Assembly (NCBI GenBank): GCA_013822735.1
Contig: PNKZ01000015.1
Location: 1 to 64,000, forward strand
DNA: 64,000 nt
Reading direction: 5' to 3'
Origin: Pirellula sp.
Lineage (GTDB): Bacteria; Planctomycetota; Planctomycetia; Pirellulales; PNKZ01
Part shown: piece by piece, positions 42,301-64,000 of the stretch
Numbering within the stretch: the first letter of the stretch is position 1
Layout of the letters: each line of letters begins with the position of its first letter
Position numbers and translations under genes: made by a program
Notes under the pieces: model-generated
Database searches by the model: none
Seen by the model: only the letters and a program-made list of their open reading frames with translations
Told to the model about the DNA's origin: nothing

Positions 42301-45300
42301 TAGCCTGCTGCATTTGCCGCACCGAGGGCCCACAAGCATCGTGCGCTCGCGTAACGGTCGCCACTCGTGCCGTTGCCGGTCCAAGTCCAGCTGCCGTTAT
42401 CGAGCTGTGCCGACACCAGATGGCCGATCGCGGAACGAATGCGCGACGCCAACTGCGGTGCGGATGTGGCGGCGTCGGTCCGTGTGGAGCGTCCATACTT
42501 CTCCAAAGCCAGCGCCGCCAGCAAATCGCTCGTCGTTGTTTCCAGCGGCGAAGCGTAACGCAAGAAGCCGCAATGCGAGTCGGTTCCGAGCACGATATCG
42601 AGCAGGCTGCCGTCGATTTGCGCTCCCACCACGACTTCCAGTTTCGGGCGCACGAGCGTCATGCCGGCCGGCTCCTCCAACCACGCCGTGGTGTCGCTCG
42701 TCGCGCTGCCGCCGGTCGATGAGACGATGGTGTACCCGAGCGGTCGAATAGGAATGGTACGGCGCAACACGTCGCGCCGCTCGCCGGCGGCAACCTCTAA
42801 CGTGATTTCCACGAAATCAGCGGCCGCCGCGCCATCTTTCGCCTCGACTGGCAACTTCGCCGCCAACGCGAAGGCGAGCTCATGCATGCCGGCCTTCTCC
42901 GACGCGATCGTCCGCTTCTCTTCGACGGTCTTGTCGCCAATGCGGGCCGTAAACGTCACTTCAAGCTTCTCTGCCGGAGCTCCCGCCACACGCTCAAGCA
43001 AGTCGTGAATGGTCGCCGTAATCTGCGCGCTGTCGCCGTCGGTCACGATCGACGGCATAGCCAACTCCCCGAACAGCTCCTTCTTCACGGTAAGTTCTTT
43101 CTCCGCTTGTCCTGTGAGCGAGTCGACGGTGATTCCCTTGGCCGAGATGTTCCAACTCGTCGAACGCTCCGGCAGCGTAACCGTGATAGTCGCCCGACCT
43201 TCGGCGTCGGTGACGACCGCCGGATTCCAATAGGCGGTTTCCTGCTGCTCCATCGCGGCCATGACCACGGCCCGCTCTTCTTTCAGCCGCCGCACGAGCA
43301 AATCGGATTGTGCCGCCTGAAGATTCTCACCTAAGAAAACATTGTCTTGCACGCCATTGCGAACGACGGTGAGCATCCGTCCGCCGTTTGAATAGTAAAG
43401 ATTCAACGCGTTCGTCGACAGTTGCGACGCATCGATCCCAAAGCGATCGAAGGCGGATTTGCTCAGCTCGGCAGTGGCGTGCAGCGACTCTTGTTCGCCC
43501 TCTTCTTGTTTGCGCTGCGCATCCTTGCGCTTTTCTCCGGTTTCAGATTTTGCATCCGCACCGTCGACATTACCTTGCGGCTTGGCCGGCGGCGAGGCGG
43601 GAGGCGCTACCGCGCCGCGCAGCATCAAACGCCCGGAGCCTGCCGTTTGCGGCTCGGCGGCCGATCGCTCGCCGCTGGTTCCGTTGTCGGAGTAGAACGC
43701 GAAGTTCTGCGCGTCGCGATCCTGTATGCCGAGCTGAATCTGCGGTTTGTCTTCGGCTAAGCTTTCTCGCAACGCATTTCCCGGCGGAATGATACCTCCC
43801 AAACCGCCGGTCGAGCCGGCGTTGACCGTCAAGGTCCCGGCGTTGACCGTGAGCGTGCTGGTATCGGCCAGCAATTTGCGCAACTCCTCTTCCTGCGCCG
43901 CGATCTCCAGCCTTTGCTCCTCCGAGAGCAGCCGCGGATTGATCGGCCGCGTCTCCGGGCGATAGGCAAAACTGATGCTGGACGCCGTGCGCATGGCCGG
44001 TTGCCGATCGAGGCCGATGAACGCCGACGCGAAGCCGGCGCCAATTTCGCCGAAGCGATCGACGTTGATCCGGTCGACCACGGCTAAACCGAGTTCGGCC
44101 GCCACGGGTCGACCTTGCGCATCGAGCGTGCGAACCGCGACGTCGACGGCATCTCCCGGCCGGATCGTGCGACCGGCGGTCTTCGGCTTCACTTCCAGCG
44201 CCACCTTCAGCGCCCGCTCCACGTAAAACTGATTCGTCGCCGAATGCAGCCGCACGCGCGACGGCTGCTTCGCGACGGCTGCGGGCTTCGGATCGGTCGG
44301 CTTCTTCGCATCCGGCTTCTTAGCCGACTTCTTCGGTAGCCGGACATCGGTCATGATGTTGACTTCCAAGAAGAAATTCGGCGCGAGGTTCGGCTGCATC
44401 GGCACCTTCAGCAGGTTGTCGCCGGTTTTCAACTCGACCAGTCGATAGTCGAGAATACGCGCACCTTGAAACGTCACCAAGGCCAGCGCCGGCGCTTCTC
44501 GCCAATGAACGCGCACGGTCGGCTCATCGCCGACGCGGAAATTATGCACGTCCGCCAAGATTCGCAGCCGAACCGTGTCTTCGTCTCCGGACACAAACAC
44601 TTCCGTGCTGCCGACTACCGGGTTGCCGAAGCGGTCTTTCCCTGCCACGCGCACAATGTATCGAGCTCCCTTGTCGAGCGCCAGCGTCAAACGCCCTTCG
44701 CCGGTCTTAGCGTCGGTCGTCACGTCGTGGGAGGAAGTCTTCTTCTCGCCGGGTTGATTGTCGATCACAGTTCGTTCAATGACTTCGACTTGCACCTTCT
44801 CCGCGGTCGGCTTTCCGTCGGCGGCCGTCGTCTTGATAGTCACCGGGAACGTTTCACCAACCGTCACGACATCGCGAGGAACCGTGACGCCGATCGAAAA
44901 GGCCCGCACGGCCAAGACTAAATCCGCCGCCGCATAGAGATTGCGTTCCGGCAGCTCGGCGGTGAGCCGCAGTTGCTGCTCTTCGCGAAGTTCGCGGGTC
45001 GGGAATTTGAACTTCACGCGACCTTCGTCGTCGGTCGTGCCGGTGAGTGTCTCGCCGTCGCCGAGCGTGTAGCGTAGCTCGCGCCCTACCAGCGGCGTAC
45101 CGTAGTAGTATTCGGCACGGATCGTCCCTTCGATCTCTTCACCGCGGAAGTAGACCTTGCGCGGCAAATCAATCACGAGTCGCACCGGCTCTAGTTGGTA
45201 GTTCTCCACGCGAAACGTGCCGGTGAACGCACGACCGTCGATGTCGCTCGCCTGCACCCGATAGTCGCCCGGGGCCGCCGTGGCCGGCAACGTGAAGAAG

Positions 45301-47693
45301 GCGTGGAACGTGCCGAAGTCGCCGGTGGCCACTTCCGTCGTATAGACCAACCGACTTCGCGCATCGTACGTATCGAGACGGTACTTTCGCTTCGGCACGG
45401 CGACGTACTTCTCATCAGCCACGGCTCGCAACACGCCGCGCACATGCACGACCTGCCCGGGCTGATAACCGCTCCGATCGGTATAGAGAAACCCACGTTC
45501 TTCCAAGCTGCGGCTCACGCCGACGCCGTTGAGCGAAACGATGTTCGACGCCGTGTTCCCGTCGGCGACCGCGAAGACACGAACGTCGTTGGTCGCCTTG
45601 AGTCGCTCGGGCGAGGCGCGATACACGCCGTCTTTCCCGGTTGCCGCTTCGGCGACCACTTCTGCGCCGTCGGAAATCAGTACCCGCGCTCCCGGCCAAG
45701 GCTTTCCGGTGCGCATGTTTTGCGCGAAGACGAATGTTTCGTCCCGAGAGCTTTTTACAATGACGTCCAGGTCGCTCCGGATCACGAGCGTCGTCGCCTC
45801 CAGCGTCTTGCCGCTCACCGTAACGGCCACGACGCCCGGCTCGGCATCCCCTTCCGCGGCCGCCAACCCCGGCAAATCGATCGAACTCTCCATCGGCTTG
45901 AAATCGGCGTAGTCGGGCACCGCGAATTCAAATGAGCGATCGGGATCGATCAGCGCGAGATCCAGCCCTTCGACGCCGCCTGCCAAGTGCATCTTCCGGA
46001 AGTAGGTCTCCAAGTCGAGCTTGTAAACGCGAACCGTCACTTTGTCCACGTTGCGCGAGCGGAGCGTAATACTCGGAGTTTCATGTGTTCGAAACACACG
46101 CTCCGTTTCGATATTCACTTGTTTCGCCGTCAGCAATCCGAGCCGCGAGTGTGCCGCGCCGACATGTGCGCCCCAGGTCAGCTTCTTGTATTCCTGCATG
46201 GCGTCAGCGGGCTTGCCGAGTTGCTCTTCCAGCGTGCGGCCGATCATGAACTGCGCTTCCGACGCAGGTTCCGAACCAGGGTACTTGGAAATCAACCGCC
46301 GCCACTCTTCAATCGCCGCGTCATAGTGCTCCTGCAGAAACTCCGCTTGTCCGAAGTGAAACAGAATTCGCGGGGAGCGAGAATCGAGCGGGTAGCGCAG
46401 CAGAAATTCGCTCCACTGTTTGCGAGCTTCGACGTAGTCCTTCTTGCGAAACGCTTCAGCGCCGATCAGGTAGTCGGCCTCGATCAATTGCTGCTGCACG
46501 CTGCTCCAGGCACCGTGCGCCGGATGCTTGGCGAGGAGATCTCGCCATGCGGCGATGGCGGCAATGAACTTGCCTTGCCGCAAGAGCGCGGAGCCGAGCA
46601 AGTTCCGAACATCGGCGGCCTCGGGTGCCGCGGCCCGTTCGGCGTCGCTCAAGAATTGTTCGGCCGCGGTCGTCGCTTCGGCGAAACGTCCGCGAACCAT
46701 ACGCGCCTGCACGAGCCCCAGGCGTGCTTCGTTTACCAACTTGTGCTCGGGGAAACGAGCGAGAAACGCCTCCGTCGCGGCGATACCGAGCACGAGGTCG
46801 TCGTCGTCGGCAGGCGACGGCATTCGATAGCTCCAGGCAATTCCCATAAACGAGCGAGCCACGTAATCGGCTTGCGTCTTGTGCGCGGGTAACTTGTCGC
46901 CGGGCCAAAGCGCCACAAGGTCTTGCCATGCGCGACGGGCTTCGGCGTGGCGATCTTGATGGAATCGGCATTCGCCCAAACGATAGCGGGCCTCGGGCGT
47001 GCGCGCTTCGTCGGCGCGATCTTTGACGAACTTGGCATAGCGATTCGCCGCTTCTTCATAATTGCCGCTGAGCCGATAGCACTCGGCGATTTGCATTTCG
47101 ATCTCCGGACGCAACTCGGGCTTCGGCCCCAGCTCGATCGCCTGCTGAAAGAACTCCAGTGCCTTTGCATAATCGGGCGCAGGTTGATCGGGCGGACTGT
47201 GTTCGGTGCGCGGCGTCGCGTACTTCCGAGCAAAGCCGAGGTAGACGTCGGCCAGTTCCTGCTTACGTTCGTGCGACAAGAGGTACTCAGCCTCGGCGCG
47301 ATAGATCAACTCCGCAGAAGCGAAGTCGCCTTTTTTCGCCAGCGACACGCCGCGCGCAAAACGCGCTCGACGGGCCCAAGGGCTCTTGGGAAACTCTTCC
47401 TCGACACGGAGAAACGCCCCGGCGGCCTCGTCATATTTGCCGGCGAAGTGCCACGCGCGCCCTTCCGCGTAGAGCAATCGATCGCGCTGCGCCTTCGGTG
47501 CGGCGGCCAGCTTCTTCAGTTCGGCCGCGGCCTCCGCATATTTCTGATCTTGCAACATCCCGGCAACGACTGACGGCAATCGTTCGACGCGATCCCAAGG
47601 CAATGGATCGTTCGTCTCCGCCGCATGCCCAAAAGCGCCCGCGGCGCTCCATTGCAACAAAACGGCGAACAGAACATGGCGGCACGACGACAT
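39336..47693 (-). CDS. Giant TPR / alpha-2-macroglobulin-like (MG) protein
   Basis: ~2785-aa frame from MSSCRHVLFAVLLQWSAAGAFGHAAE; N- and C-terminal TPR stretches, MG-like central repeats (GYQPGQVVHVRGVLRAV, PERSTSWNISAKGITVDSLTGQAEKELTVKKELFGELAMPSIVTDGDSAQITATIHD). Confidence 0.9.
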   Translation of the reverse strand: MSSCRHVLFAVLLQWSAAGAFGHAAETNDPLPWDRVERLPSVVAGMLQDQKYAEAAAELKKLAAAPKAQRDRLLYAEGRAWHFAGKYDEAAGAFLRVEEEFPKSPWARRARFARGVSLAKKGDFASAELIYRAEAEYLLSHERKQELADVYLGFARKYATPRTEHSPPDQPAPDYAKALEFFQQAIELGPKPELRPEIEMQIAECYRLSGNYEEAANRYAKFVKDRADEARTPEARYRLGECRFHQDRHAEARRAWQDLVALWPGDKLPAHKTQADYVARSFMGIAWSYRMPSPADDDDLVLGIAATEAFLARFPEHKLVNEARLGLVQARMVRGRFAEATTAAEQFLSDAERAAAPEAADVRNLLGSALLRQGKFIAAIAAWRDLLAKHPAHGAWSSVQQQLIEADYLIGAEAFRKKDYVEARKQWSEFLLRYPLDSRSPRILFHFGQAEFLQEHYDAAIEEWRRLISKYPGSEPASEAQFMIGRTLEEQLGKPADAMQEYKKLTWGAHVGAAHSRLGLLTAKQVNIETERVFRTHETPSITLRSRNVDKVTVRVYKLDLETYFRKMHLAGGVEGLDLALIDPDRSFEFAVPDYADFKPMESSIDLPGLAAAEGDAEPGVVAVTVSGKTLEATTLVIRSDLDVIVKSSRDETFVFAQNMRTGKPWPGARVLISDGAEVVAEAATGKDGVYRASPERLKATNDVRVFAVADGNTASNIVSLNGVGVSRSLEERGFLYTDRSGYQPGQVVHVRGVLRAVADEKYVAVPKRKYRLDTYDARSRLVYTTEVATGDFGTFHAFFTLPATAAPGDYRVQASDIDGRAFTGTFRVENYQLEPVRLVIDLPRKVYFRGEEIEGTIRAEYYYGTPLVGRELRYTLGDGETLTGTTDDEGRVKFKFPTRELREEQQLRLTAELPERNLYAAADLVLAVRAFSIGVTVPRDVVTVGETFPVTIKTTAADGKPTAEKVQVEVIERTVIDNQPGEKKTSSHDVTTDAKTGEGRLTLALDKGARYIVRVAGKDRFGNPVVGSTEVFVSGDEDTVRLRILADVHNFRVGDEPTVRVHWREAPALALVTFQGARILDYRLVELKTGDNLLKVPMQPNLAPNFFLEVNIMTDVRLPKKSAKKPDAKKPTDPKPAAVAKQPSRVRLHSATNQFYVERALKVALEVKPKTAGRTIRPGDAVDVAVRTLDAQGRPVAAELGLAVVDRINVDRFGEIGAGFASAFIGLDRQPAMRTASSISFAYRPETRPINPRLLSEEQRLEIAAQEEELRKLLADTSTLTVNAGTLTVNAGSTGGLGGIIPPGNALRESLAEDKPQIQLGIQDRDAQNFAFYSDNGTSGERSAAEPQTAGSGRLMLRGAVAPPASPPAKPQGNVDGADAKSETGEKRKDAQRKQEEGEQESLHATAELSKSAFDRFGIDASQLSTNALNLYYSNGGRMLTVVRNGVQDNVFLGENLQAAQSDLLVRRLKEERAVVMAAMEQQETAYWNPAVVTDAEGRATITVTLPERSTSWNISAKGITVDSLTGQAEKELTVKKELFGELAMPSIVTDGDSAQITATIHDLLERVAGAPAEKLEVTFTARIGDKTVEEKRTIASEKAGMHELAFALAAKLPVEAKDGAAAADFVEITLEVAAGERRDVLRRTIPIRPLGYTIVSSTGGSATSDTTAWLEEPAGMTLVRPKLEVVVGAQIDGSLLDIVLGTDSHCGFLRYASPLETTTSDLLAALALEKYGRSTRTDAATSAPQLASRIRSAIGHLVSAQLDNGSWTWTGNGTSGDRYASARCLWALGAANAAGYKIPDDIYDKGISYLQSQLTAVADDDLEGKAILLHALAETEHGDFSLANRLYRGRSTISPAGAAYLALALAKMNHTPLAADLLVNWKPMVRKIGISADHRGSRVAEVEAQALYGLALTRAAANSPKLKESVDWLLAHREGRRWSPDAATGPAAMVVAEWFAQHKVGGERYSLTIVVNEREAAKIDVDPTAAPQTIAIAPENLKPGKQRIQFLMTGRGHLSYQCTLTGFVAADKLKNTTNAWFAQRIWEPALREFGGRELPRGFSAVEGSYSSFHNPLTQLPIGRRGRVELRVHRNYPGGMVAEDRLEYLVVREPLPAGTAVVEQTIRGGFERYELLPGEIVFYVGNRRSHEAISFDVVGAIAGDYRAAPPMIFDAHRPEQFIVEKAAPLTVLPRGKESVDAYRWSPDELYELGKRNYAKRDWKAVRLYLAQMLKEWPIRSAPYQDTLRMLLDAHLELGPAAEVVRYFELVKEKSPELEIPFENILKVGAAYHELGEYERSYLVFHATVESSFYSDGAVAGFLEAQGEFLRSVDVMRKLISEYPPEPYVASAEYALAQRVYGYAPSVAGDAKLRQRKLTRLALVAAARSMLDDFLTAHPDDPAADQAAFAEANAFLELQQYDQAVASCLRFAERYPESDFLDSYWYIIGYSHFAAGRPDQALEMCRKVAEMKRPEKGTGREVESRNKQRALYILGQIYHSLGKAAEAIKEYTLVADQIPDAKKAIEYFTRRSIELPEVTTIRPGTPALVKLEYRNVPKCELRAYRIDLMKFSLLRQNLEAITQINLSGIRPLHEETIELGDGKDYRDRERELKLPLDEEGAYLIVCRGENLHTSGFVLISPLKLEVQQDAVSGQVRTTLKNALDDKYASHVHVKVIGTRDSDFKAGETDLRGVFSAEPISGRATVIAQSTDNRYAFYRGETDLLPQPAANAPQQANQPSTTPAQQGSQSEYLLQELNISNGLNQRQQIDNLRDNYYNNRARGVKAKAAK

Positions 47694-47920
47694 GGGCCGA
47701 CTCCTTGAGAATCGTGCGCGGACGACACGCCGACAACATGCAGTCGCGGGGGGCGGTCGGACGCGGGGGATTTGCAACGACGAACAATAGCCTAACGAGC
47801 GGACGGCCCGTGGCACGAGCCGGCGCGAGAATCGCGCCGGCTTGCACGCCTAAGACGCGGCAAATGTCCGGAAAGTTTCCGGAGTTCTCCCGATTTTGGG
47901 CCGCTTGCAGGAAATCGCGG

Positions 47921-49318
47921 CTATTCCCGCAGTTTACCGACAGTTCGCACTCCGGCGCCCTGACGCTTTTCGAGCTCGTCTCCGAGGTCTTGGCGTGCGG
48001 TTCCCGCCAACTTCTTGAGCCGTGCGATTACGTCCGGATGCTCCGCTTGCACGTCCCGAGTTTCGCCGGGGTCGGCTTCCAGATCGAAGAGCGCCATTTC
48101 CGTGCGCCCTTGGGCATAGGGGCCGGGCTGACCGCCGCTGCCGGGCTTCACGAGCTTGCGATAGGTGTGGGGGAAATGCAATTTCCAACGTCCACTGCGC
48201 ACGGCATGCAGCCCTTCGCCCCAATAGAAGTTAAGGGCTTCGTGCGGCGACTTCGCTTCCGCTACACCAAACATCAGCGGGCTGATGTCGAGCCCGTCGA
48301 TTTTGCGTGTCGAATCGAGCGTTATACCGACCAGCTTGGCGACCGTCGGCAGGATGTCGATCATCATCACCGGCTCTTTGCAAACCGTTCCGGCCGGAAT
48401 CTTTCCGGGCCAACGCATGAGGCACGGAACGCGTTGTCCGCCGTCCCAAGCGGTTCCTTTGCCGTGTGCGAGCGGCTTGGCCGAGCCGGCGTGGTCGCCG
48501 TACGAAAGCCAAGGTCCGTTGTCCGAAGTGAACACCACGAACGTCCGATCGTCGACGCCGTTGCGCTTCAGTGCCGCCAGGATTTCGCCGACCGACCAAT
48601 CGATTTCCGAGATCACATCGCCGAAAAGGCCTCGCTTCGTCTTGCCGGCAAACTTGTCCGAGACGAACAACGGCACGTGCGGCATGCTGTGCGGCACGTA
48701 GAGCAGAAACGGCTTCTCACGGTTCTTTTCGATGAACTTGACGGCCCGCTCGGTGTACCACGTGGTGAGCTTCGTCTGATCCGGATTCAGCTCCACCGTT
48801 TTCTCATTCTCAATCAGGGGCAAATCGGGGAACTTCGCCGTTGGATGCTGGGGCCACATATCGTTGGAGTAGGGAAGCCCGAAGTACTCATCGAACCCGT
48901 GGCGCGTCGGCAAAAACTGCGGATAGTGTCCCAGGTGCCATTTGCCGAAGATCGCCGTCGCATAGCCCGCCTGCTTGGCCACCTCGCCGAGCGTCGTTTC
49001 TTCATCGGCGATGCCGATTTTGCTTTGCGGCCCGAGCGCGCCGAGGATGCCGACGCGATTCGGATAACAACCGGTCAACAGTGCGGTGCGCGAGGCGCTG
49101 CAAACGGCCTGAGCCACGTAGAAGTCGGTGAACTTCATTCCCTCAGCGGCCATCCGGTCGAGGTTGGGCGTCGAATAGCCCTCTGCGCCAAACGGACCGA
49201 TATCGGCGTAGCCCAGGTCGTCGCAAAAGATGACGACGATATTTGGCTTTCCGTTGGGGGCGGCGACGGCGGAAGATGCGAACAGAGCGACCGCCAGGAG
49301 CGTCAATGTGCGGACCAT
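47921..49318 (-). CDS. Sulfatase (arylsulfatase family)
   Basis: [21 protein letters not shown]; FGse motif [12 protein letters not shown]. Confidence 0.95.
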
Positions 49319-49362
49319 CCAACGAGTTCCTAATGGGTGACGATCGTGAATACCCTGCGAAT

Positions 49363-50619
49363 CTACTTCGAGGTCTTCAAACCATGAAGGGCTTTGTGCA
49401 CCATGACTTGTGCCGCAGACCGCGGCGAAGCAAACTGGCCGGCGAGGATATCATCTTCCGTGAAACGCGCCAGAAGTATCTCGCGGTCGGAGCCGCGGTT
49501 GTGGTCGTAGACGATGTAATACGTACCGTCAGGATGCTGGAAGCCGTCGGGATAGGAGACGCCGGAGCGCTCGTCGAGCATTAGGCCGCCGCGCCATGTT
49601 TTCCCTTCGTCGTCGGAGACGTACGCCGAGAGGTGCGAGCGCTTCGGCGTGCGCTCCTCAATCTTGCCGTGCTTCACGAGCAACAATCGCCCCGAAGCGA
49701 GTCTCCGCAAATGAAATCGCGAGCAAACATGGGCGATTGTAGAAGGTTGCGGTTCGCTCCATGTGCGTCCTGCGTCCGAAGAATAGCTCTCGGCGATCCC
49801 GAAGTCCGTGCGGGCCAGCATCCAAAGCCGGCCGTCTTTTAGTTCGACGAACATATGCTCGTCGAACTGGCTCTGAGGAAAGAGCACGCCGCCGCGCCGC
49901 GTCCACGTTGCTCCTTGATCCGTCGATTCATACACGTGGGCCATGCGCTCGTCATCGAGTTCAGGGAACAACTCGCGCAACGGAGCCGGACCGATACGGC
50001 GGCGAGTCCAAAGAGACACCGGCAGTAGCCACGTGCCGTCCTTGAGAACGATCGGCTTATTGAGCGTCGCACCGTTCGCAAGCCGCCGAGGCGCCGACCA
50101 CACCGGTTCGGCAGCGTCGGGGTTATCGCAAGAAATAGCCCAAACGCCGGCCCGGCCGTCGAAATAGCCGAGCGATTGATCGTAGAACAGCCAAAGCCGA
50201 CCGGTCGGGTCGGTCCAAAAGTTGCCGACGAGCGCGCGACGTGCCAAACCATCGGGCGCGTCGACCGGATCGATTACGAGCCTCGGTTCGCTCCAGGTCT
50301 TGCCGTCGTCGTCGCTGGTCGCGGCGCAGAAGAACCCCTTCTCGGAGTCGCCGCCGGCCACCCATGCCGCCCAAAGCCGGCCCTTGGGAGTGCGATCCAT
50401 GCCAATAACCATCGCATAATCGAGCTTCACGGCGGTGTAGCGGTCATCGGGCTTCGTGATGATCGGTACCGGCTCGATTCCGAGATCAATGATCGCCTGC
50501 GACGGCGGAGTTGTATCCGCCACCGGCTTGTCCGCGGCGCGAACATTCGCGACCGACCAACAAACACACAACGATGCGACGAAAACAAAGCGACGGATCA
50601 GATGGCTCATAGGATGCAA
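49363..50619 (-). CDS. Sialidase/neuraminidase-like (BNR) family exo-acting protein
   Basis: Asp-box-like [39 protein letters not shown]. Confidence 0.88.
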
Positions 50620-53678: not shown

Positions 53679-53696
53679 TCCTTCTTGCTCGGTGCC

Positions 53697-53715
53697 CCTT
53701 CTCCTAAGGAGAAGG
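53697..53715. terminator. Hairpin CCTTCTCCT-A-AGGAGAAGG between convergent genes
   Basis: Perfect 9-bp arms followed by TTTTA on + strand; immediately after the barrel protein stop. Confidence 0.65.
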
Positions 53716-53717
53716 TT

Positions 53718-55013
53718 TTAGTACTTGCCGTACAATTGATCGCGTTTGCGTTGGTTGTAGGCCAACTTTTCGGCGGGCGTCATCTTCGTGACGTCGGTCG
53801 TGGCTCCAGCTGTGGGCTTCGGCGAAGCATCCGGCTTGGCGTGGCAACCGCAATCGCCGTGCTTCGGCGTTTCAGAAATCGCGGGCTTCGTCTTGCAAGC
53901 GCACGCGTGATGATCGTCCGCCGCAGCTTCCTTCGGCTTTGCTGCTGCGGCAGGAATCGCCGCAGGCACGCTTGCGCTGGAGCCGCCGCCGTAGCTCATC
54001 ACGCTGGTTTGCAGCAGGAGATCGTCTTCCAACTTGCGATGCGGGCGGATATTCATCTTTTGGAGCACGCCGTGATAGGCCCGCACGGCCTCTTCGGGCG
54101 AAACGACGCGATCGGCAATCAGCCGCAAGCATTCGACAAACGCCAACTGGTGCTCGGCGTGGTTGATCTTGCGACCATAGAGGGCCACACGAGCGCCATA
54201 TTTCTGCGCCTCGGCCAAGAGCTTAAACGCATCGTACGTCGTGCCGGAGCCGCCGCCGAGGATCCCGACCACTAAGTGCGGGTCGTAGGCCACGAGGTCT
54301 TCCATCGCCTTCGGGCCATGGTACACGACCTTGAGGAAGATCGGTCGACCGGCGTACGCCACGCCCGCCAAGGTACGCGTGATGCAATCGTTTACGAAGT
54401 CCGGAGTCGTTTCCGGGGTCAGCCCTTCCGGAGCATTCGGGTCGAACACTTCGAGGAAGTGCCGGAACCCTTTGACCTCGGCTTCGGCGCGGAACTCGGC
54501 ATAGCGCTCTAGCGCTAAGCGGTCGAGTTCCAAACGGTTGTTGAACGTGATGCTGTACAGGCCCAGATTCGTGCCGCGCTTCCGCTCGGCATCGGTCGGG
54601 TTAAGCTTGCCGGCTTGAATATGATCGAGCGACGCGGAACGAAACGGCAGCGACGGCTGCTGTATGTACCGATTGTCGCGGGCCACCCACACGTCGGTCG
54701 TATCGTTGGCTCGAGCCGCCGGCGTGACGTGCGACGTTTCGAACAGACGCTCCTGATTGTTGAGCACGTCGTTGTTCGACGCCGACATCAACATGATGTC
54801 GATCTTGCCTTGCCGCACGATTTGTCGAATCTGCTCGCGATACTCGGCGATCGTCTTGTAACGGCTCCGGCCTTGGGCGTCCGGCAACGTTTCGCCGGCC
54901 GAGGCGATGCCGAACGCCATGTCGGCGTCTTTGGCGTCGGCGATGATGAAATCGCGGCAGCCCGAAGGGTCGGCGTGAATGGCGGCGAGTTTTTGATCGA
55001 GCGACTTTTGCAT
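53718..55013 (-). CDS. Predicted beta/alpha-barrel (class I aldolase-like) protein of the BMC locus with Cys/His-rich tail
   Basis: VVGILGGGSGTTYDAFKLLAEAQKYGARVALYGRKINHAEHQLAFVECLRLIADRVVSPEEAVRAYHGVLQ; tail HHACACKTKP...GDCGCHAKPD...MTPAEKLAYNQRKRDQLYGKY; start MQKSLDQ. Confidence 0.75.
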   Translation of the reverse strand: MQKSLDQKLAAIHADPSGCRDFIIADAKDADMAFGIASAGETLPDAQGRSRYKTIAEYREQIRQIVRQGKIDIMLMSASNNDVLNNQERLFETSHVTPAARANDTTDVWVARDNRYIQQPSLPFRSASLDHIQAGKLNPTDAERKRGTNLGLYSITFNNRLELDRLALERYAEFRAEAEVKGFRHFLEVFDPNAPEGLTPETTPDFVNDCITRTLAGVAYAGRPIFLKVVYHGPKAMEDLVAYDPHLVVGILGGGSGTTYDAFKLLAEAQKYGARVALYGRKINHAEHQLAFVECLRLIADRVVSPEEAVRAYHGVLQKMNIRPHRKLEDDLLLQTSVMSYGGGSSASVPAAIPAAAAKPKEAAADDHHACACKTKPAISETPKHGDCGCHAKPDASPKPTAGATTDVTKMTPAEKLAYNQRKRDQLYGKY

Positions 55014-55026
55014 GTTTCCGCTGCAG

Positions 55027-55968
55027 TTACTTTCCGCCGATGCGCGCCATGACCACGTCTTGCGTTTCCCGCAGCGCTTGCGCGCTCCGTTTGAGTCCTT
55101 GCACTTCCTTCGGCCAAAGCTCGATCTCGTGCGTGGCGAGGCGACCCTTGCGACCGACGACGGTCGGCACGGAGATCGCGACGTCGCGAATGCCGTAGCA
55201 CCCGGCTTGCACCGACGACACCGGCAGAATACAGCGGCGATCCAAAGCCACGGCTTCGATAACTTCTTGAATGGCAAGGCCGACGGCGAAACCGGCGCCC
55301 CCCTTCTTCTTGATGACTTCGGCGCCGGAGCCTTTGGTGCGCGTGAAGAGTTCGTCGGCCAAGCGCGACTGCCAGCCAGGATACTTTTCCAGCGGCAGAC
55401 CGCCGATCGTGGCGCTCGACCAAATCGGGACCATGCTGTCGCCGTGTTCGCCCAAGATCAGGGCAGACACTTGCGTCGGCGCGGCGTCGAGCTTATCGGC
55501 GATCAGGCTGCGAAAGCGGATCGTGTCGAGCACGGTGCCGAGCCCGAGCACTTGCGATTGCGGCAGCTTGAGACGTTGCGAGGCGACATAAGTGAGAATG
55601 TCGACCGGGTTCGACACGACGACGACCACTGCATCTTGCTTATAGCCGACCTTCTGGATTTCGCTCAGGATGCCGACGAAGAGATCGGTGTTACGATTGA
55701 TCAGATCGAGCCGACTCTCATCCGGCTTGCGTCGTAGGCCGGCGGTGATACAAATGACGTCGCTCGACGGAATGTGTTCGTAGCCGCCGGACGAGATCTT
55801 TTGATCCGCCATGAGCGTCGCGCCGTGGAGCAAGTCGAGCGCTTGCCCGCCGACCGCTTCCGCGTTGACGTCCAACAGCGCGATCTCGCGCACGACCTTG
55901 CCCGTTTGCAATGCGAATGCCGTGCACGAGCCGACTAGGCCGGCGCCGCCGATAATGCTTACTTTCAT
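55027..55968 (-). CDS. Lactate/malate dehydrogenase family (NAD-dependent)
   Basis: MKVSIIGGAGLVGSCTAFALQ Rossmann; VVVVSNPVDILTYVAS; LGLGTVLDTIRFRSLIAD; LILGEHGDSMVPIWS. Confidence 0.94.
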   Translation of the reverse strand: MKVSIIGGAGLVGSCTAFALQTGKVVREIALLDVNAEAVGGQALDLLHGATLMADQKISSGGYEHIPSSDVICITAGLRRKPDESRLDLINRNTDLFVGILSEIQKVGYKQDAVVVVVSNPVDILTYVASQRLKLPQSQVLGLGTVLDTIRFRSLIADKLDAAPTQVSALILGEHGDSMVPIWSSATIGGLPLEKYPGWQSRLADELFTRTKGSGAEVIKKKGGAGFAVGLAIQEVIEAVALDRRCILPVSSVQAGCYGIRDVAISVPTVVGRKGRLATHEIELWPKEVQGLKRSAQALRETQDVVMARIGGK

Positions 55969-56058
55969 GAGGGTGCTGCTTCTATTTAATGTCTTGGTGT
56001 CTTGTGATAAGCGGAGCCGCTTCACGCTCTGCTGCGCATCGCGGCTGACGAACGGTTT

Positions 56059-56985
56059 TTAGCGTTTGCTGAGTTCGGCCATCACGCGGTCGGTGATGGC
56101 GCGGACGAGCGCTTCTTGATCGATTGCGCCCGGCGCGCCGGCTTGCGGCAAGCTGGTGGAAGCGTCGCCCATCTTCGCGGCTTGCTCCATCACTTGCGGA
56201 TTCTTCCCCTTGGCCGGCATCGGCGGGGGGGCGTCGAATGCCTTGCGTTCCACGCCGGCCGACTTCCAGCTATCGCGGAAGACGTCGTTCGCGCAGATGT
56301 CGCAGTTTTCCATGCCCGGGGCGACGCGCGGATCGGACCAGCCCCACTTGGTCTTCAGGTCGATGAGTTCCTGCGACTTCTGTTGGTTCAAGTACGTCAC
56401 TTTGCCGAGGTCCTTCGCCAGCATGAGCATGCGGCAGTAGGCATCGAGGATTTCGGTCCACCAGTAGGCTCGCTCGACACTTTCGCCGTAGCTGATGGTG
56501 CCGTGGTTGGCGAGGATGATGACGTTCGTCTTGTGGACGAACGGCAGGACGGTGTTGGCAAAAGCGTCGCCGCCCGGGGTTTCATAGACGGTGATCGGCG
56601 TTTCGCCGAGAAACACTTCTACTTCCGGCAGCACGCATTGCGGAATTGGTTCCCGCGCGATGGCGAACGCCGTGGCATGAGGCGGATGGCAGTGGACGCA
56701 GCTCTTGATTTCCGGTCGGGCCTTCATGATGGCCAAGTGCAGCAGTACTTCGCTCGTACGCTTACGGCGTCCGGAGAGTTGCTTGCCGTCCATGTCGACC
56801 GTGCAGATATCGTCCGGCTTCATAAAGCCTTTGCAAATCATCGTCGGCGTGCAAAGCACTTCGTTCTCGTTTAGCCGATAGGTGATGTTGCCGTCGTTCG
56901 CCGCGGCGAAGCCTTTGGCATAGAGCCGGCGGCCGATCTCGCAGATTTCTTCTTTGATCTTATGAACGTTGACGTGTTGGGCCAT
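56059..56985 (-). CDS. Class II aldolase/adducin family (fuculose/rhamnulose-1-phosphate aldolase-like) with C-terminal encapsulation-like helix
   Basis: AANDGNITYRLNENEVLCTPT, CVHCHPPHATAFAIA, TVLPFVHKTNVIILANHGTISYG; tail AIDQEALVRAITDRVMAELSKR. Confidence 0.93.
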   Translation of the reverse strand: MAQHVNVHKIKEEICEIGRRLYAKGFAAANDGNITYRLNENEVLCTPTMICKGFMKPDDICTVDMDGKQLSGRRKRTSEVLLHLAIMKARPEIKSCVHCHPPHATAFAIAREPIPQCVLPEVEVFLGETPITVYETPGGDAFANTVLPFVHKTNVIILANHGTISYGESVERAYWWTEILDAYCRMLMLAKDLGKVTYLNQQKSQELIDLKTKWGWSDPRVAPGMENCDICANDVFRDSWKSAGVERKAFDAPPPMPAKGKNPQVMEQAAKMGDASTSLPQAGAPGAIDQEALVRAITDRVMAELSKR

Positions 56986-57058: not shown

Positions 57059-57352
57059 TTACTTTTCGGCGTTATGGATTTCAATTTGGTCGAGAATGGC
57101 GGCGTTATAGGCATCGAGCGGTTTGTAATTCGGAGCGAACGGTTGGGCAGCTTCGACCCCTTCGCTGAAGGCGATCGTGCTGCCGTGGCCGGCGCCGAGG
57201 TCGTCGTACACGACGAGTTCTTCCGCAAAGACCTGCGACTTCCCGGTGAGGTTGTCGAGCGATAGCGGCACCACCACGCGATAGCTTCCGCCCGCAAGGC
57301 TCGGATGCCTTTCGCTCAACGTGACCGTGCCGATGACAGTGCCGATGCGCAT
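57059..57352 (-). CDS. BMC-P shell vertex protein (EutN/CcmL family)
   Basis: MRIGTVIGTVTLSERHPSLAGGSYRVVVPL..VVYDDLGAGHGSTIAFSEGVEAAQPF. Confidence 0.93.
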   Translation of the reverse strand: MRIGTVIGTVTLSERHPSLAGGSYRVVVPLSLDNLTGKSQVFAEELVVYDDLGAGHGSTIAFSEGVEAAQPFAPNYKPLDAYNAAILDQIEIHNAEK

Positions 57353-57364
57353 GTTGGTTCGGTT

Positions 57365-58099
57365 CTACTTGAGGAGTTCGAGAAGTTCGTTCGGAACGTT
57401 CGACCGCGCCGTCAACCAGGCGGCAACGACGCGCTGTAGCAGGTAATCGCTCTTTCCCATCGGCCGCACGACGAGCAGGTTCGCATCGACGGCCGATGCC
57501 GCTCGCGCGACGCTTTGCGGCTCGTCGCCCGCGATTGCTCGAACACCCGAACGACGATTGGCAGCCACGACCGCTACTTCCGCTTCGTCGGCGATCAAGA
57601 GCGCTCGCACGCCGCCGCGGGCCGCTTCTTCGGCGAGTTCGCGCACTGACGAAGCAAGTCCGCTTTGGGCCAGTTGCTGCACGCCGTAGCCGTCGCGACG
57701 CAGACCGTCGACCAGTCGCGCGGCGTCGAACCGTGCAGCCGCGACGGCAATCGCAATCGATCGCTTCACAGCGGATGATGTCTTCGTTCCGGCAGCTTGA
57801 CGAACCAGCAGGATCTTCCGCTGACGGAGTATGTCGCGTACGGCCGGTGTTACCACGGCCTTCGGGTCGACAATGAGTTGGTTGATTTCGGTGAGCCGGC
57901 CGTCGATATCGCCGAGAGCGATCACGCGATTGGTGAGTTCGAGGACGCCCCTCGTCCGGCCTTCGGCCGGCTTCTCCCGCGACGGGAGAAGGGAGGCGGG
58001 CGACGATGTGGAAGTTGTGGTCGGCGCAGGCGCAGCGGCGGTCATACGCGACAGGACGTCGCGGACCATACGCTCGATTTCTGCGGCCGATACGTTCAT
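57365..58099 (-). CDS. BMC-associated protein with N-terminal encapsulation-like helix and degenerate RpiB/LacAB-like domain
   Basis: MNVSAAEIERMVRDVLSRM + linker; VRALLIADEAEVAVVAANRRSGVRAIAGDEPQSVARAASAVDANLLVV resembles RpiB [26 protein letters not shown]...[10 protein letters not shown]. Confidence 0.7.
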   Translation of the reverse strand: MNVSAAEIERMVRDVLSRMTAAAPAPTTTSTSSPASLLPSREKPAEGRTRGVLELTNRVIALGDIDGRLTEINQLIVDPKAVVTPAVRDILRQRKILLVRQAAGTKTSSAVKRSIAIAVAAARFDAARLVDGLRRDGYGVQQLAQSGLASSVRELAEEAARGGVRALLIADEAEVAVVAANRRSGVRAIAGDEPQSVARAASAVDANLLVVRPMGKSDYLLQRVVAAWLTARSNVPNELLELLK

Positions 58100-58103
58100 A
58101 AGC

Positions 58104-58364
58104 CTAGTCGTCTTGAATTCCCATCACGCTCCAGCGAACCGGCGTGTTCTCGTTTCCTACCAATTCGCGAGTTCCCTTACCGTCGCTCGTGATGATCACC
58201 GTCTGGCCCACCGCGGCGCCGAGGCTGTCGATCGAAATGACCGGATCGCCGTCGGGCGAACGCTCGTCGGCTTGCAACATCTGCACGATCAGCAACTTCC
58301 AACCGTTCATGGTCGGATGCTTAATCGTGCTCGTTGCAGTACCGACGACGCGGGCAAGTTGCAT
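58104..58364 (-). CDS. BMC-P shell vertex protein (EutN/CcmL family)
   Basis: MQLARVVGTATSTIKHPTMNGWKLLIVQMLQ..VISIDSLGAAVGQTVIITSDGKGTRELVGNENTPVRWSVMGIQD. Confidence 0.95.
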   Translation of the reverse strand: MQLARVVGTATSTIKHPTMNGWKLLIVQMLQADERSPDGDPVISIDSLGAAVGQTVIITSDGKGTRELVGNENTPVRWSVMGIQDD

Positions 58365-58417: not shown

Positions 58418-59866
58418 TTACGCTTTGCCAAGAATCCGCAGATCATCAATCAACGAGCAGCGGCGTTCGCGGGTAAACGTCAGCGGCGTCGTTACCCCTT
58501 CGCCGGTCGGCGTCGCGATCGAGAACGACAGGTACCCTTCGCCGCCCAGGCCGAGCGAGGCCATGCACGGGCCGTTTTTCACAAACAGCGTCGTGTCCAT
58601 CTCGCGGCCCATCTTCGTCATGTTGCGAACGTTGTTCGAGTGGATGATCGCGGTGTGGCGGAAGCCATGTTCGAAGAACTTCGCTTTGGCAATCGCTTCG
58701 TCGACGTTGCGGCAACGGACGAACGGGACGAACGGCATCATTTGCTCGACCGGGACGAACGGGTTGGTCTCGTCGGTTTCGCCGAACAGCAAGTCAACGT
58801 CGGGACCGATGCTCTTGCCGATGCCGCGTGCGAGGACCGCCGCGTCTTGACCGAGGAATTCCTTGGCCGGCACGTCGTGCTTGTGTTCCCCTTCTCCGAC
58901 CGACGTAATCGCAACCTTCGTCAGCGCGTCGACTTCGCGAGCATTGAGGCGAGCGGCGCCGGCCCGATCCATGGCGGCCAGCATCGCGTCGAAGACCGAC
59001 TCGACGACGAACACCTCTTTTTCAGCGATGCAGAGCAGATTGTTGTCGTACGCGGCGCCGGTGATGATCGAGCGCGCGGCACGATCGAGATCGGCCGTTT
59101 CGTCGACGACGACCGGCGGATTTCCCGGACCGGCAACGACGGCCCGCTTGCCGCTATTCAATGCAGCCCGTGCAACGGCCGGTCCGCCGGTGACGCAGAT
59201 CATCTTCACACCGCGGTGTTTGAAGATGCTATTGGCCGTATCGAGCGTCGGCTCGGCGATGACGCAGACGAGGTTGTCGATTCCCAGGTCGCGATAGATC
59301 GCTTCATTGAAGCGACGCACCCCTTCGGCGGCGATTTTCTTGCCGCCCGGATGCGGATTAACGACGAGCGTATTGCCGCCCGCGATCATGCTCACGGCGT
59401 TGCCCGTGATCGTCGGCAGCGAGTGCGTGATGGGAGTGATGCAGCCGATGACGCCGAACGGTGCATGCTCGATGACTGCCAAGCCGTGGTCGCCGCTGAA
59501 GACCTCGCTTCGCATGAACTCAACGCCCGGCGTACGGCGGCCGAGCGTTTCGAGCTTTTCGATTTTGTGCTTGAGCCGACCGACCTTGGTTTCGTTCATT
59601 TCGGCGGTACCGAGCTCGACGCATTGGTCGATCGATATCCGGCGGATATGGTCGATGATCCGCTTACGATCTTCGATCGTGCGTTGCGAGAGTTGTTCGA
59701 ACGCTTCGGTGGCCGCGGCGACCGCTTCGTCGACGCAGGTAAAAACGCCGTAGCGCCCCGCAAACGACTTCGGCGCCGCGTGCACACGTCCGGCAAGGCC
59801 CGAACCGTTGAGGTTCTTGAGCACTTCGGCGACGACGTTACGAATGAGATCTTCGGTAGATGGCAT
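58418..59866 (-). CDS. CoA-acylating aldehyde dehydrogenase (PduP/EutE-type) with N-terminal encapsulation-like helix
   Basis: [21 protein letters not shown]; catalytic Cys context [18 protein letters not shown]; start 59866. Confidence 0.95.
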
Positions 59867-59961: not shown

Positions 59962-60276
59962 TTACGCGTTCTGCCGATTAAAAACGTTTTGATTATCCAC
60001 TTGCACCGTGTCGACGATGCCGATGATCACGGCGTCGATCGGCAGGCTCTTGGTTTCCGGCGTGAGCCGAGCGCTCGAGCCCTGCACGATGAGCACATAC
60101 TCCCCTTCGCCGCAGCCCATGGTGTCGACCGCCACGAAGGTGCGCCCCGTCGTGACGAGCCGCTTCCGATCGCTCGGGTCGATGCGATACGGTTCGACGA
60201 TCAACAGTTTGTGACCGACCATCGAGCCCACTTTTTGCGTGGCGACGACGCTGCCGGTAACCTTGGCGACGAACAT
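59962..60276 (-). CDS. BMC-P shell vertex protein (EutN/CcmL family)
   Basis: MFVAKVTGSVVATQKVGSMVGHKLLIVEPYR..FVAVDTMGCGEGEYVLIVQGSSARL..PIDAVIIGIVDTVQVD. Confidence 0.95.
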   Translation of the reverse strand: MFVAKVTGSVVATQKVGSMVGHKLLIVEPYRIDPSDRKRLVTTGRTFVAVDTMGCGEGEYVLIVQGSSARLTPETKSLPIDAVIIGIVDTVQVDNQNVFNRQNA

Positions 60277-60299: not shown

Positions 60300-61493
60300 T
60301 TAGTTGCCCGCACCGAGCGTTTGCTTGGCCAATCGAGCCACGACGATCTCTTCATTCGTCGGTACGATCCAAACCTGCGTTTGGCTCTGCGAAGTGCTGA
60401 TGCACTGCTCCCCCTTGGCCGCGGCATTCTTCGCCGGGTCGAGTTGGATGCCGAGCCCTTCCAAGCCTGCACACACGGCGGCGCGAATGCCGACGCCGTT
60501 CTCACCGATGCCGCCGGCGAATGCGATCACGTCGCACCCGCCGAGTTCGACGAGATACGCGCCGAGGTATTGCCGGATGCTGCCGACGAAGACGTCGAGC
60601 GCGAGTTGCGCCCGGGCATTCCCGGCAGCAGCGGCCTGCTCGACGTCGCGCACATCTTCCGACACGCCGCTGAGGCCCAAGAGCCCGCTGCGGCACGCCA
60701 AGTCGTCGAGCACTTGGTCAAGCGATTTGCCGGTCGCTTTCATCACGATCGGCAATGCAAACGGGTCGAAGTCGCCGACGCGGTTGTTATTCAACAACCC
60801 CGTTTGCGGGCTCATTCCCATACTGTTGCCCATGCTCTCGCCGTTCTTGATCGCGCAGAGCGAATTCGAGCCCCCGAGGTGACACGAAATGACTCGCAGT
60901 TCCTTACGGCCGAGCAATTCAGCGCAACGACCACCGATGTAGCGATGGCTCGCACCGTGAAACCCCCAACGACGGATCTGAAACTTGTCGGACCACTCGT
61001 AAGGCACGGCGTAGAACTTGTTGCGAGCCGGAGCCGTTTGATGAAAGCCTGTTTCGAAGGCCGCCACCAAGGGAATCTCAGGCAGTTTCTCGCTGAGCAA
61101 TCGCATGGCGGCGATGTACGGAGGGTTATGAGCCGGAGCGACCGAACTCACCTCTTCCATTGCCGCGAGCACATCCGGCGTTACGCGTTGCGCACCGCTA
61201 TAACGGCCGCCATGCACCGCCTTGAAGCCGATCGCCGCCACTTCCGCCCCGTCCGTTAAGCAACCTTCGTGCGGGTCGGTAAGTTGCTCCAAGCAATGGC
61301 GCACCGCCACCGCATGGTCGGGGACCACGGCCGTGAGTTCGCGGCGCGGCTTTCCGGCAATCTCGACGAAGCACTTACTCTCGGGCGAACCGATGCGCTC
61401 GGTGCCGCCGCGGGCGAGTTGGCGTTCGTCGTTCATGTCGAACAAGCGGTACTTGAAACTCGTGGAACCGAGATTGGCGACGAGAATTTTCAT
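60300..61493 (-). CDS. ackA: Acetate/propionate kinase
   Basis: [63 protein letters not shown]. Confidence 0.96.
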
Positions 61494-61518: not shown

Positions 61519-61935
61519 TTAGCCGAAGTACGCTTTGACCAAGCCTTCCGACGGACGCGGAATCACGTGGCTGGCAGCCACTTCGCCGACTTGTTGAGCC
61601 GCTTGCACGCCGGCTTCCACGGCCGCTCGCACGCTGCCGACGTCGCCGCGAACAATCGCGGTGACCAAGCCGCCGCCGATGGCGACCTTCTTCACGATTT
61701 CAACGTTCGCAGCCTTGGCCATCGCATCGGCCGCTTCGACCAAAGCGACGAGGCCCTTCGTTTCCACCAAACCAATAGCATCGTTCATGGGACGTTTTTC
61801 CTTAACCGGGGTGATCTGTTCTTGAGGCGGAGTCGCTTGCGGCGCTTCCACGGGTACGGCGGTCGAACTCCGCCGCGGCGCAGGACGAGCCGGGCTCGCC
61901 TTCTTAACCGGACGTTTCTTACGACTTACCGCCAT
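61519..61935 (-). CDS. BMC-H shell hexamer protein with basic/Pro-rich N-terminal extension (alternative start at 61788)
   Basis: [55 protein letters not shown]; preceded in frame by [27 protein letters not shown]... Confidence 0.93.
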
Positions 61936-61989: not shown

Positions 61990-62292
61990 CTACTCGACGC
62001 CGGCAGTCGACATGCCGCTCGGGAGAATGACGCCGATGTCGCCGTGCGGGCGCGGAATCACTTGTACGCTGACGACTTCGCCGATCCGGCCCGCAGCCGC
62101 GGCTCCGGCATCCGTGGCAGCCTTCACGGCCGCAACGTCGCCCATCACAAACGCGGTAACCAAGCCGCTGCCGACCTTGTCCCAACCGAGGAACTGGACA
62201 TTGGCAGCCTTCATCATCGCGTCTGTGGCTTCGACCAGGGCCACGAAGCCCTTGGTCTCAATCATGCCCAGCGCTTCCATTTGCTTCGCCAT
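61990..62292 (-). CDS. BMC-H shell hexamer protein
   Basis: [77 protein letters not shown]. Confidence 0.96.
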
Positions 62293-62376
62293 TGCAGAAA
62301 TCTCCGAATCAAAAAAACAAAACGATTGTTTGCTCAAACATCAAAACGCAAGCGGCCCTCCGCGGCGCCGCATCTC

Positions 62377-63054
62377 TTACTGTTTCAACAGCTCTACCTT
62401 GGTCGCATGATCTAGGTCGACGGCGTTTCCTTCGTCGGTATCGATATGCACTTCCAGCTTGCTCGTGGCGTCGGCGCGTACGAGCAGGTCTTCAAACGTC
62501 GTCGTGCAGCTTGAATGAATTCGCAGGCTCATTCGGTCGCCGTTCTTCACGCCGTAGCGTTCGGCGTCGGCGAACTTCATATGCACGTGGCGTTCGGCGC
62601 GAATCACGCCTTGTTTCAATTCCACGACTCCCTTCGGGCCGACCAACACGCAGCCGGGCGTTCCTTCGATCTTCCCGCTCGGCCGCACCGGCAAATCGAT
62701 GCCGAGCGAGATGCCGTCGGTGAACGCGAGCTCCACTTGGCTAAAGGGACGGGTTGGGCCGAGCACGCGTACGGTCGGCAACATCCGCTTGCGCGGGCCG
62801 ACGACCATGACCGTTTCCGCTGCCGCGAAGAAGCCGTCTTGATAGAGGGGCTTTTCCGGGGTGAGCACGGCACCGCGGCCGAAAAGCGTTTCGACGTCTT
62901 CGTCCGTCAGATGGACGTGCCGCGCCGAGACGCTGACGACCAACTCCGGGGCTTTGGGCGAGCCGTTGTCACCGGCGCCGGACGATTGCTTGAAGACGAT
63001 CTCCCGTACGATCTTTTCGATCGTGGCACGATCCAGCGAGGGGGCGATGCTCAT
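62377..63054 (-). CDS. pduL: PduL-type phosphate propanoyl/acyltransferase with N-terminal encapsulation-like helix
   Basis: [66 protein letters not shown]. Confidence 0.95.
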
Positions 63055-63146: not shown

Positions 63147-63918
63147 TCAAACTGCGGTGACGGCAACTGTCAGCCGGACGCCCGCAGCTTCGATCTTCCG
63201 CTTCCAATCGTCACTGATTCCGTCATCTACCACGAGTTGCGACGCTTCGTTCAAAGGGGCCAAGTGGGAAAGGCTCTTATGTCCAAACTTCGTGCTGTCT
63301 GCGACGACGATCACTTCTTCTCCCGCTTTCATCATCGCCCGCTCGGTTTCCACCAGCAGCAGGTTGCTGTTGTAGAAGCCGCGCTCGTTGATTCCCGCCA
63401 CGCTCAGCACGGTGCGTCGTACGTTGAGCCGTTCCAACATCTCGTTGGCGTAGGGCCCGAGCGACACGCCGGTCCGTGGATACACGTAACCTCCCAACAG
63501 CACCAAGTCGGTCGTCGCGTTCGAAGCGAACAAGTTCGCCACCGGCAACGAGTTGGTCACAATCTGCAGCGGCCGGCCGACCAACAACCGAGCCACTTCG
63601 TAGGTCGTCGTGCCGCCGTCGAGCAGCACCGTGTCTCCGTCGCAAATCAGTTCCGCCGCTCGACGCGCGACGGCCCTTTTCCTGTCCCAATTCGCCGGCT
63701 GCAGTTGGTCGAAGTGAGGCAGCTTGGGAGAAGCACCGGTGTAGAACACGCCGCCGTGCGTCCGCTTCGCATGCCCTGCGTCTTCCAACGCTTCCAGATC
63801 CCGCCTCACCGTCGACTCGCTAACGGTCAGCAACTCCGCCAAGTCGGGCAACGCGGCAAACCCACGCTCGCGCACGAGCTCCAACAGCTTCGACCGACGT
63901 TCCTCAACGGTAGGCATA
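63147..63918 (-). CDS. DeoR family transcriptional regulator
   Basis: MPTVEERRSKLLELVRERGFAALPDLAELLTVSESTVRRDLEALEDAGHAKRTHGGVF. Confidence 0.95.
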
Positions 63919-64000
63919 GCCTGGAATTCCCTTGCCAAGATTAGTGACAAGTATCTTCCAGTTCTTGCCACATATCAATCACTAAACGCTATTTTATTGC

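Follow-up and report, generated by a model that had tools for sequence, protein, structure and literature searches.

The window, as we call the whole stretch of 64,000 nucleotides analysed here, spans positions 1 to 64,000 of contig PNKZ01000015.1 of Pirellula sp. and carries on its minus strand a microcompartment (BMC) locus whose gene set is that defined for the PVM (Planctomycetes-Verrucomicrobia) microcompartment (PMC4207490). Read leftward, the locus runs in the order given below, from a DeoR-type regulator to an unannotated class I aldolase-like gene, here termed X, with which it ends.

63147..63971 (-), DeoR-type regulator
62377..63054 (-), PduL phosphotransacylase (NF011652)
61990..62337 (-), BMC-H shell protein (PF00936)
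61519..61935 (-), BMC-H shell protein (PF00936)
60300..61493 (-), acetate kinase, AckA (PF00871)
59962..60276 (-), BMC-P shell protein (PF03319)
58418..59866 (-), CoA-acylating aldehyde dehydrogenase (PF00171, NF011927)
58110..58364 (-), BMC-P shell protein (PF03319)
57365..58099 (-), RpiB-like protein with N-terminal helix (weak PF02502 match, 4e-4, under cutoff)
57059..57352 (-), BMC-P shell protein (PF03319)
56059..56985 (-), class II aldolase, the PVM signature enzyme, with C-terminal helix (PF00596, 3e-46)
55027..55971 (-), lactate/malate dehydrogenase-like protein (LDH), in the PVM AlcDH function (Pfam Ldh_1_N/C)
53718..55013 (-), gene X, 431 aa, class I aldolase-like, closing the PVM-type BMC locus
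53692..53716 (-), 8-bp perfect hairpin (MFE -15.5 kcal/mol, z -2.06)

The reading frame, strand and coordinates assigned to X in an earlier sequence-only reading are correct: the gene starts with an ATG at 55013 and its stop codon ends at 53718, and the core and tail quoted in that reading are present letter for letter, the tail 'HHACAC...GKY' occupying 53721-53912 as claimed. A gap of 13 nt separates the stop of the LDH gene from the start of X. The hairpin, directly 3' of the X stop and before a convergent HD-type gene, is a possible terminator, maybe a bidirectional one, although it has no strong U-run. Within the same locus, the RpiB-like protein combines an N-terminal helix resembling an encapsulation peptide with a long linker, and the weakness of its PF02502 match points to a degenerate or new-function isomerase.

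The product of gene X divides into a folded core and a long tail, with the following elements:

53991..55013 (-), residues 1-341, (beta/alpha)8 barrel core, from the AF2 model and PDB fold matches
54330..54332 (-), codon of K228, the predicted Schiff-base lysine on beta-6, invariant in 92/92 homologues and in tail-less copies
53784..53990 (-), residues 342-410, disordered low-complexity linker (pLDDT about 30-57), freely variable in length and sequence
53844..53903 (-), cysteine module within the linker, C371-A-C373 ... C388-G-C390, two CxC pairs
53730..53783 (-), residues 411-428, conserved helix at the C terminus, putatively for docking, comprising Met411 and a predicted helix at 413-428 (pLDDT about 81); in the full-length model the stretch predicted as disordered ahead of it is 337-405

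AlphaFold2, applied to the window's core with 57 homologues, models it confidently as an eight-stranded beta/alpha barrel (pLDDT 92, pTM 0.91). Every one of the best 50 listed PDB fold matches of this core is a class I Schiff-base aldolase (LsrF, ADH synthase, archaeal FBPA or LacD), with E-values to about 1e-10 and TM-scores of up to 0.79 on the target, and the full-length model retrieves the same group; among the matches listed LsrF stands first and ADH synthase second, with small gaps in score. In class I enzymes of the DhnA/LacD group the Schiff-base lysine sits on beta-6, and K228 lies on strand 227-229, which is beta-6 of the X model, so that the search for such a lysine proposed in the sequence-only reading yields an invariant candidate whose position is given by the model. 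Residues D26, K28, D29, D31, E188, G253-G254 and G280-R281-K282 are likewise invariant in the 92 homologues and kept in the tail-less copies. In an alignment, K184 of MJ0400 falls on the lysine of a planctomycete FbaB-type protein.

Against Pfam and NCBIfam, X reaches no family above cutoff, PF01791 included. The faint sequence matches are to ADH synthase (NF005556, E 0.015), to an LsrF-type family (NF006081, 0.16) and to LsrF in the PDB (0.85-1); the matches to DUF3240 and SbcD, weak and partial, were discarded. A PDB profile search with the 92 homologues returned just short or weak matches to designed barrels and LDH, and hhalign comparisons of X with planctomycete FbaB and DeoC, set beside a TIM barrel unrelated to them, gave no profile match to either aldolase and no discrimination, the target alignments being very thin. 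The assignment therefore draws on fold and residue position, which suggest a divergent protein of the class I (Schiff-base) aldolase type. The barrel proposed in the sequence-only reading thus stands in its fold, its invariant beta-6 lysine and its faint ADH synthase and LsrF matches, and falls short of a family profile.

Class I fold and lysine leave the reaction of X unfixed, as LsrF acts as a thiolase and the reaction of ADH synthase is a different one again. Copies of X outside BMC clusters offer a context. In locus L174 (6396-8847), outside any BMC cluster, 37 nt separate a tail-less X from the non-acylating aldehyde dehydrogenase gene downstream of it; in L089 a tailed X follows a class II FBP aldolase gene by 26 nt, in L113 X has a PfkB kinase on one side and an SDR on the other, and in L176 and L043 unlinked copies are found among sugar genes (GntP/NanA-type/AGE and GH38, respectively); other unlinked copies have uninformative neighbours. 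Given this sugar-catabolism context, X most likely splits a phosphorylated ketose by aldol cleavage into DHAP and a small aldehyde, the latter most likely of the product type that PVM enzymes consume. The reading we prefer, holding it at about even confidence, is that X serves the PVM organelle as a Schiff-base aldolase, is docked to it by its tail and makes DHAP and an aldehyde from a phosphorylated ketose.

A rather unlikely alternative retains the class I barrel and lysine and has X run another reaction of the group, either an LsrF-like thiolysis, in which a phosphoketone and CoA would give DHAP and acyl-CoA, or an ADH-synthase-like transfer, with acyl-CoA passing to PduL. That LsrF and ADH synthase lead both the listed fold matches and the faint sequence matches speaks for it, as does the recycling of CoA through PduL in the window's locus; yet the top fold matches differ little, no CoA site is apparent, and the pairing with a non-acylating aldehyde dehydrogenase in L174 points to a free aldehyde.

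For X as a ketose-cleaving aldolase, a lead on the substrate is that the window genome, despite its PVM locus, lacks a recognisable L-rhamnose or L-fucose isomerase: across the three families searched, this genome (99% complete) has no match to RhaA (PF06134), to the FucI C-domain (PF02952) or to RhaI (TIGR02635). Strong RhaA, FucI or RhaI matches are rare in those relatives within the order that carry a tailed X. Strong FucI matches occur in 4/40 genomes of the order, none of them with a tailed X, an association (p 0.005, kinship uncorrected) that we treat as a lead only.

The tail has the architecture of a microcompartment cargo signal. Metabolosome encapsulation peptides are described as amphipathic helices, some 18 residues long, that sit at a protein terminus on a disordered linker (PMC12339742), and X likewise ends in a helix that a disordered linker of variable sequence ties to the barrel. 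Its helix, with consensus PDFxxMTxxERLAYHxxRLxRxxG, is present in nearly all copies; across the 92 homologues the tail ends in the pattern P-D-F-x-x-M-[TS]-x3-[RK]-[LVA]-x-[YW]-[HN]-x-x-R-[LW], and the Met, aromatic and Arg positions are near-invariant. The basic helix described earlier as unlike the other cargo helices of the locus is borne out by its net charge, which is +2 to +3 where the other four terminal helices in the window's locus have -2 to +1, and by its profile, which fits none of the other proteins in the loci; the tail motif, sought on the other proteins of X loci, was not found there. Its hydrophobic moment, 0.16 in the window and 0.38 for the consensus, compares with 0.22-0.57 in the other helices of the locus; the helix is no more amphipathic than these, appears weakly so, and is hence hardly a textbook encapsulation peptide.

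X is a real, conserved and BMC-associated protein. In a sample of 297 genomes from the phylum, BMC-P is present in 19/20 genomes with a clear X and in 76/277 others (Fisher p 1.5e-9). The synteny with PVM-type loci that had been put forward holds in 55 of the 75 scorable loci, a verrucomicrobial one (L124) included, and fails in the other 20, about a quarter, where X lies outside the BMC cluster. Orthologues scattered away from BMC loci, named earlier as a sign against the association, are thus partly seen; the searched genomes in which X is unlinked or on a short contig nonetheless have BMC-P in 26/26 cases. Within the phylum sample, 9/19 homologue loci read have X outside the BMC cluster, and 8/9 of those genomes have BMC-P. 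In the window's order BMC-P is found in 40/40 relatives and X in 32/40. X is dispensable, in that several near-complete genomes have a PVM-type locus and lack X, and a substitute sought beside such X-less loci was not obvious.

Six copies of X (G107, G131, G337, G338, G352 and G353) lack the tail, and all six are unlinked from the BMC locus; loss of the tail is seen only in unlinked X. One of these genomes, G131, is the sole clear-X genome found without BMC-P, and a search of its family for further BMC-free X returned just G131. A tail working at the organelle fits this pattern, which falls short of proof of an organelle role since the other 5/6 genomes with a tail-less X retain BMC-P.

These distributions also bear on the unlikely alternative that X is an ordinary cytosolic sugar enzyme of the pathway that feeds the organelle, its tail being a regulatory or oligomerisation element with no docking signal. 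The distance of X from BMC genes in about a quarter of scorable loci, the tail-less copies in BMC-P-bearing genomes and the weak amphipathicity of the helix are all compatible with such an enzyme, but tail and disordered linker share the architecture of BMC cargo signals (PMC12339742), the tail is lost only where X is unlinked, and the phyletic link to BMC-P is very tight.

The linker contributes a second, optional element. Two CxC pairs arise by chance in 0.4% of shuffles of the same composition, and no CxC occurs in the other proteins of the window's BMC locus. Among X homologues the module is nearly all-or-none: at least two CxC are present in 21/92 tails, no cysteine in 70/92 and a single cysteine in 1/92. 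The motifs named in the sequence-only reading fare unequally, in that the CxC pairs recur in relatives and the CxCH does not, H391 not being conserved; what stays constant is a pair of CxC motifs or, in its place, a CxCxC with one further cysteine. The suspicion that close relatives might lack the Cys-rich tail proved false, since most of the window's own order has it, though most lineages outside that order do not. In the window's order 19/26 tail-bearing copies read, the window counted, carry the module; its commonest spacing there is C-x-C-x7-C-x-C, and other spacings occur. On a quick tree with many open forks the module requires at least 8 changes, and so appears to have been gained or lost repeatedly. 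It is present in 20/55 BMC-linked and 0/20 unlinked loci (p 0.0008, kinship uncorrected), and within the window's order in 19/22 linked and 0/7 unlinked X (kinship uncorrected), L168, a Cys-bearing copy on a short contig, being counted as linked.

The linker cysteines of X would most likely form a metal- or disulfide-based clamp or switch. Hsp33 has a site of four Cys, a CxC among them, that can bind Zn and serve as a redox switch (PMC8282892), and CsoS2 has Cys pairs within a disordered BMC protein (PMC11365436). Hsp33 shares with X four cysteines including a CxC, which X holds as CxC...CxC in its linker, and CsoS2 shares the placement of Cys pairs in a disordered region; neither has any sequence relation to X. 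The metal or redox chemistry of the tail and the handling of DHAP, both raised in the sequence-only reading, we too infer rather than observe. That X is instead a non-catalytic structural BMC protein, an aldolase-derived scaffold or assembly linker, is very improbable. Its terminal helix and Cys-rich disordered linker do bring to mind scaffolds of the CsoS2 type, in which Cys pairs are conserved (PMC11365436), but the residues at catalytic positions are invariant in all copies, even in the tail-less one of the BMC-P-free genome, and there is one tail per barrel.

Returning to the docked Schiff-base aldolase, we envisage that the barrel would bind a phosphorylated ketose through its beta-7 GG and beta-8 GR loops, the putative phosphate contacts, and that K228 on beta-6 would form an imine with the ketose. 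Cleavage would then release DHAP and a short hydroxy-aldehyde, possibly of the lactaldehyde type, which the organelle's acylating aldehyde dehydrogenase, PduL and AckA could use up. The disordered linker and basic terminal helix would dock X to the shell or to cargo, and in many operon-encoded copies the tetra-cysteine linker may add a metal- or disulfide-based clamp or switch. A bolder version, which we consider doubtful, has X mark a sub-type of PVM-like organelle running on something other than fucose or rhamnose, in which X and not the class II aldolase would open another phosphorylated sugar inside the shell and the tetra-cysteine linker would be a metal or redox switch gating docking or activity.

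The closest known proteins are the class I aldolases of the DhnA/LacD group (LsrF, 3glc; ADH synthase, 2qjg; archaeal FBPA, 2yce/1w8s; LacD, 3jrk), with which X shares the barrel fold, the beta-6 lysine and the phosphate-loop motifs GG (following beta-7) and GR (following beta-8). It differs from them in its identity of ~12-18%, the missing PF01791/NCBIfam match, its long C-terminal linker and helix, and its BMC linkage. A class I aldolase in BMC loci is already known, DeoC with RpiB (PMC4207490); like X it belongs to a BMC pathway beside an RpiB-type protein, but DeoC is a recognised deoxyribose-5-phosphate aldolase, whereas X represents a separate lineage that has gone unrecognised, and a class II aldolase is already present in its locus. 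That enzyme (PF00596) shares with X the locus, a C-terminal helix and a presumed role in making the aldehyde, and differs in its unrelated fold, its metal mechanism and its type of terminal helix. Encapsulation peptides of the PduP/PduD/EutC type resemble the tail of X in being terminal helices of ~18 residues behind a disordered linker, in contrast to which the helix of X is basic, rich in Tyr, His and Arg, weakly amphipathic and strongly conserved at individual residues. The BMC literature examined, the primary PVM paper and catalogue supplements aside, does not describe the lineage, and X seemingly represents a class I aldolase-like lineage distinct from DeoC and without a name.

PVM-type organelles are thought to break down deoxy-sugars, and they have been described with a single aldehyde maker, the class II aldolase acting on fuculose or rhamnulose phosphate. 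Our results suggest that they hold a second aldehyde-making enzyme, X; if this is true, the range of substrates open to them would be broadened by the X family, which occurs in many planctomycete genomes, in some verrucomicrobial ones and in others, and the failure to recognise fucose and rhamnose isomerases in much of the window's order raises the question of what these organelles burn. The tail would be a new kind of cargo-docking helix for trials in BMC engineering, for which the cysteine module offers a discrete, optional element, and the tail-less X of L174 provides a natural tail-free version for enzymology.

Elsewhere in the window, inspection by eye of a very large ORF at 39336-47816 (-), 2826 aa as listed, shows tetratricopeptide-like and alpha-2-macroglobulin-like stretches. 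Near the BMC locus, at 47921-50619 (-), adjoining ORFs that by eye are sulfatase-like and sialidase-like suggest glycan breakdown close by.
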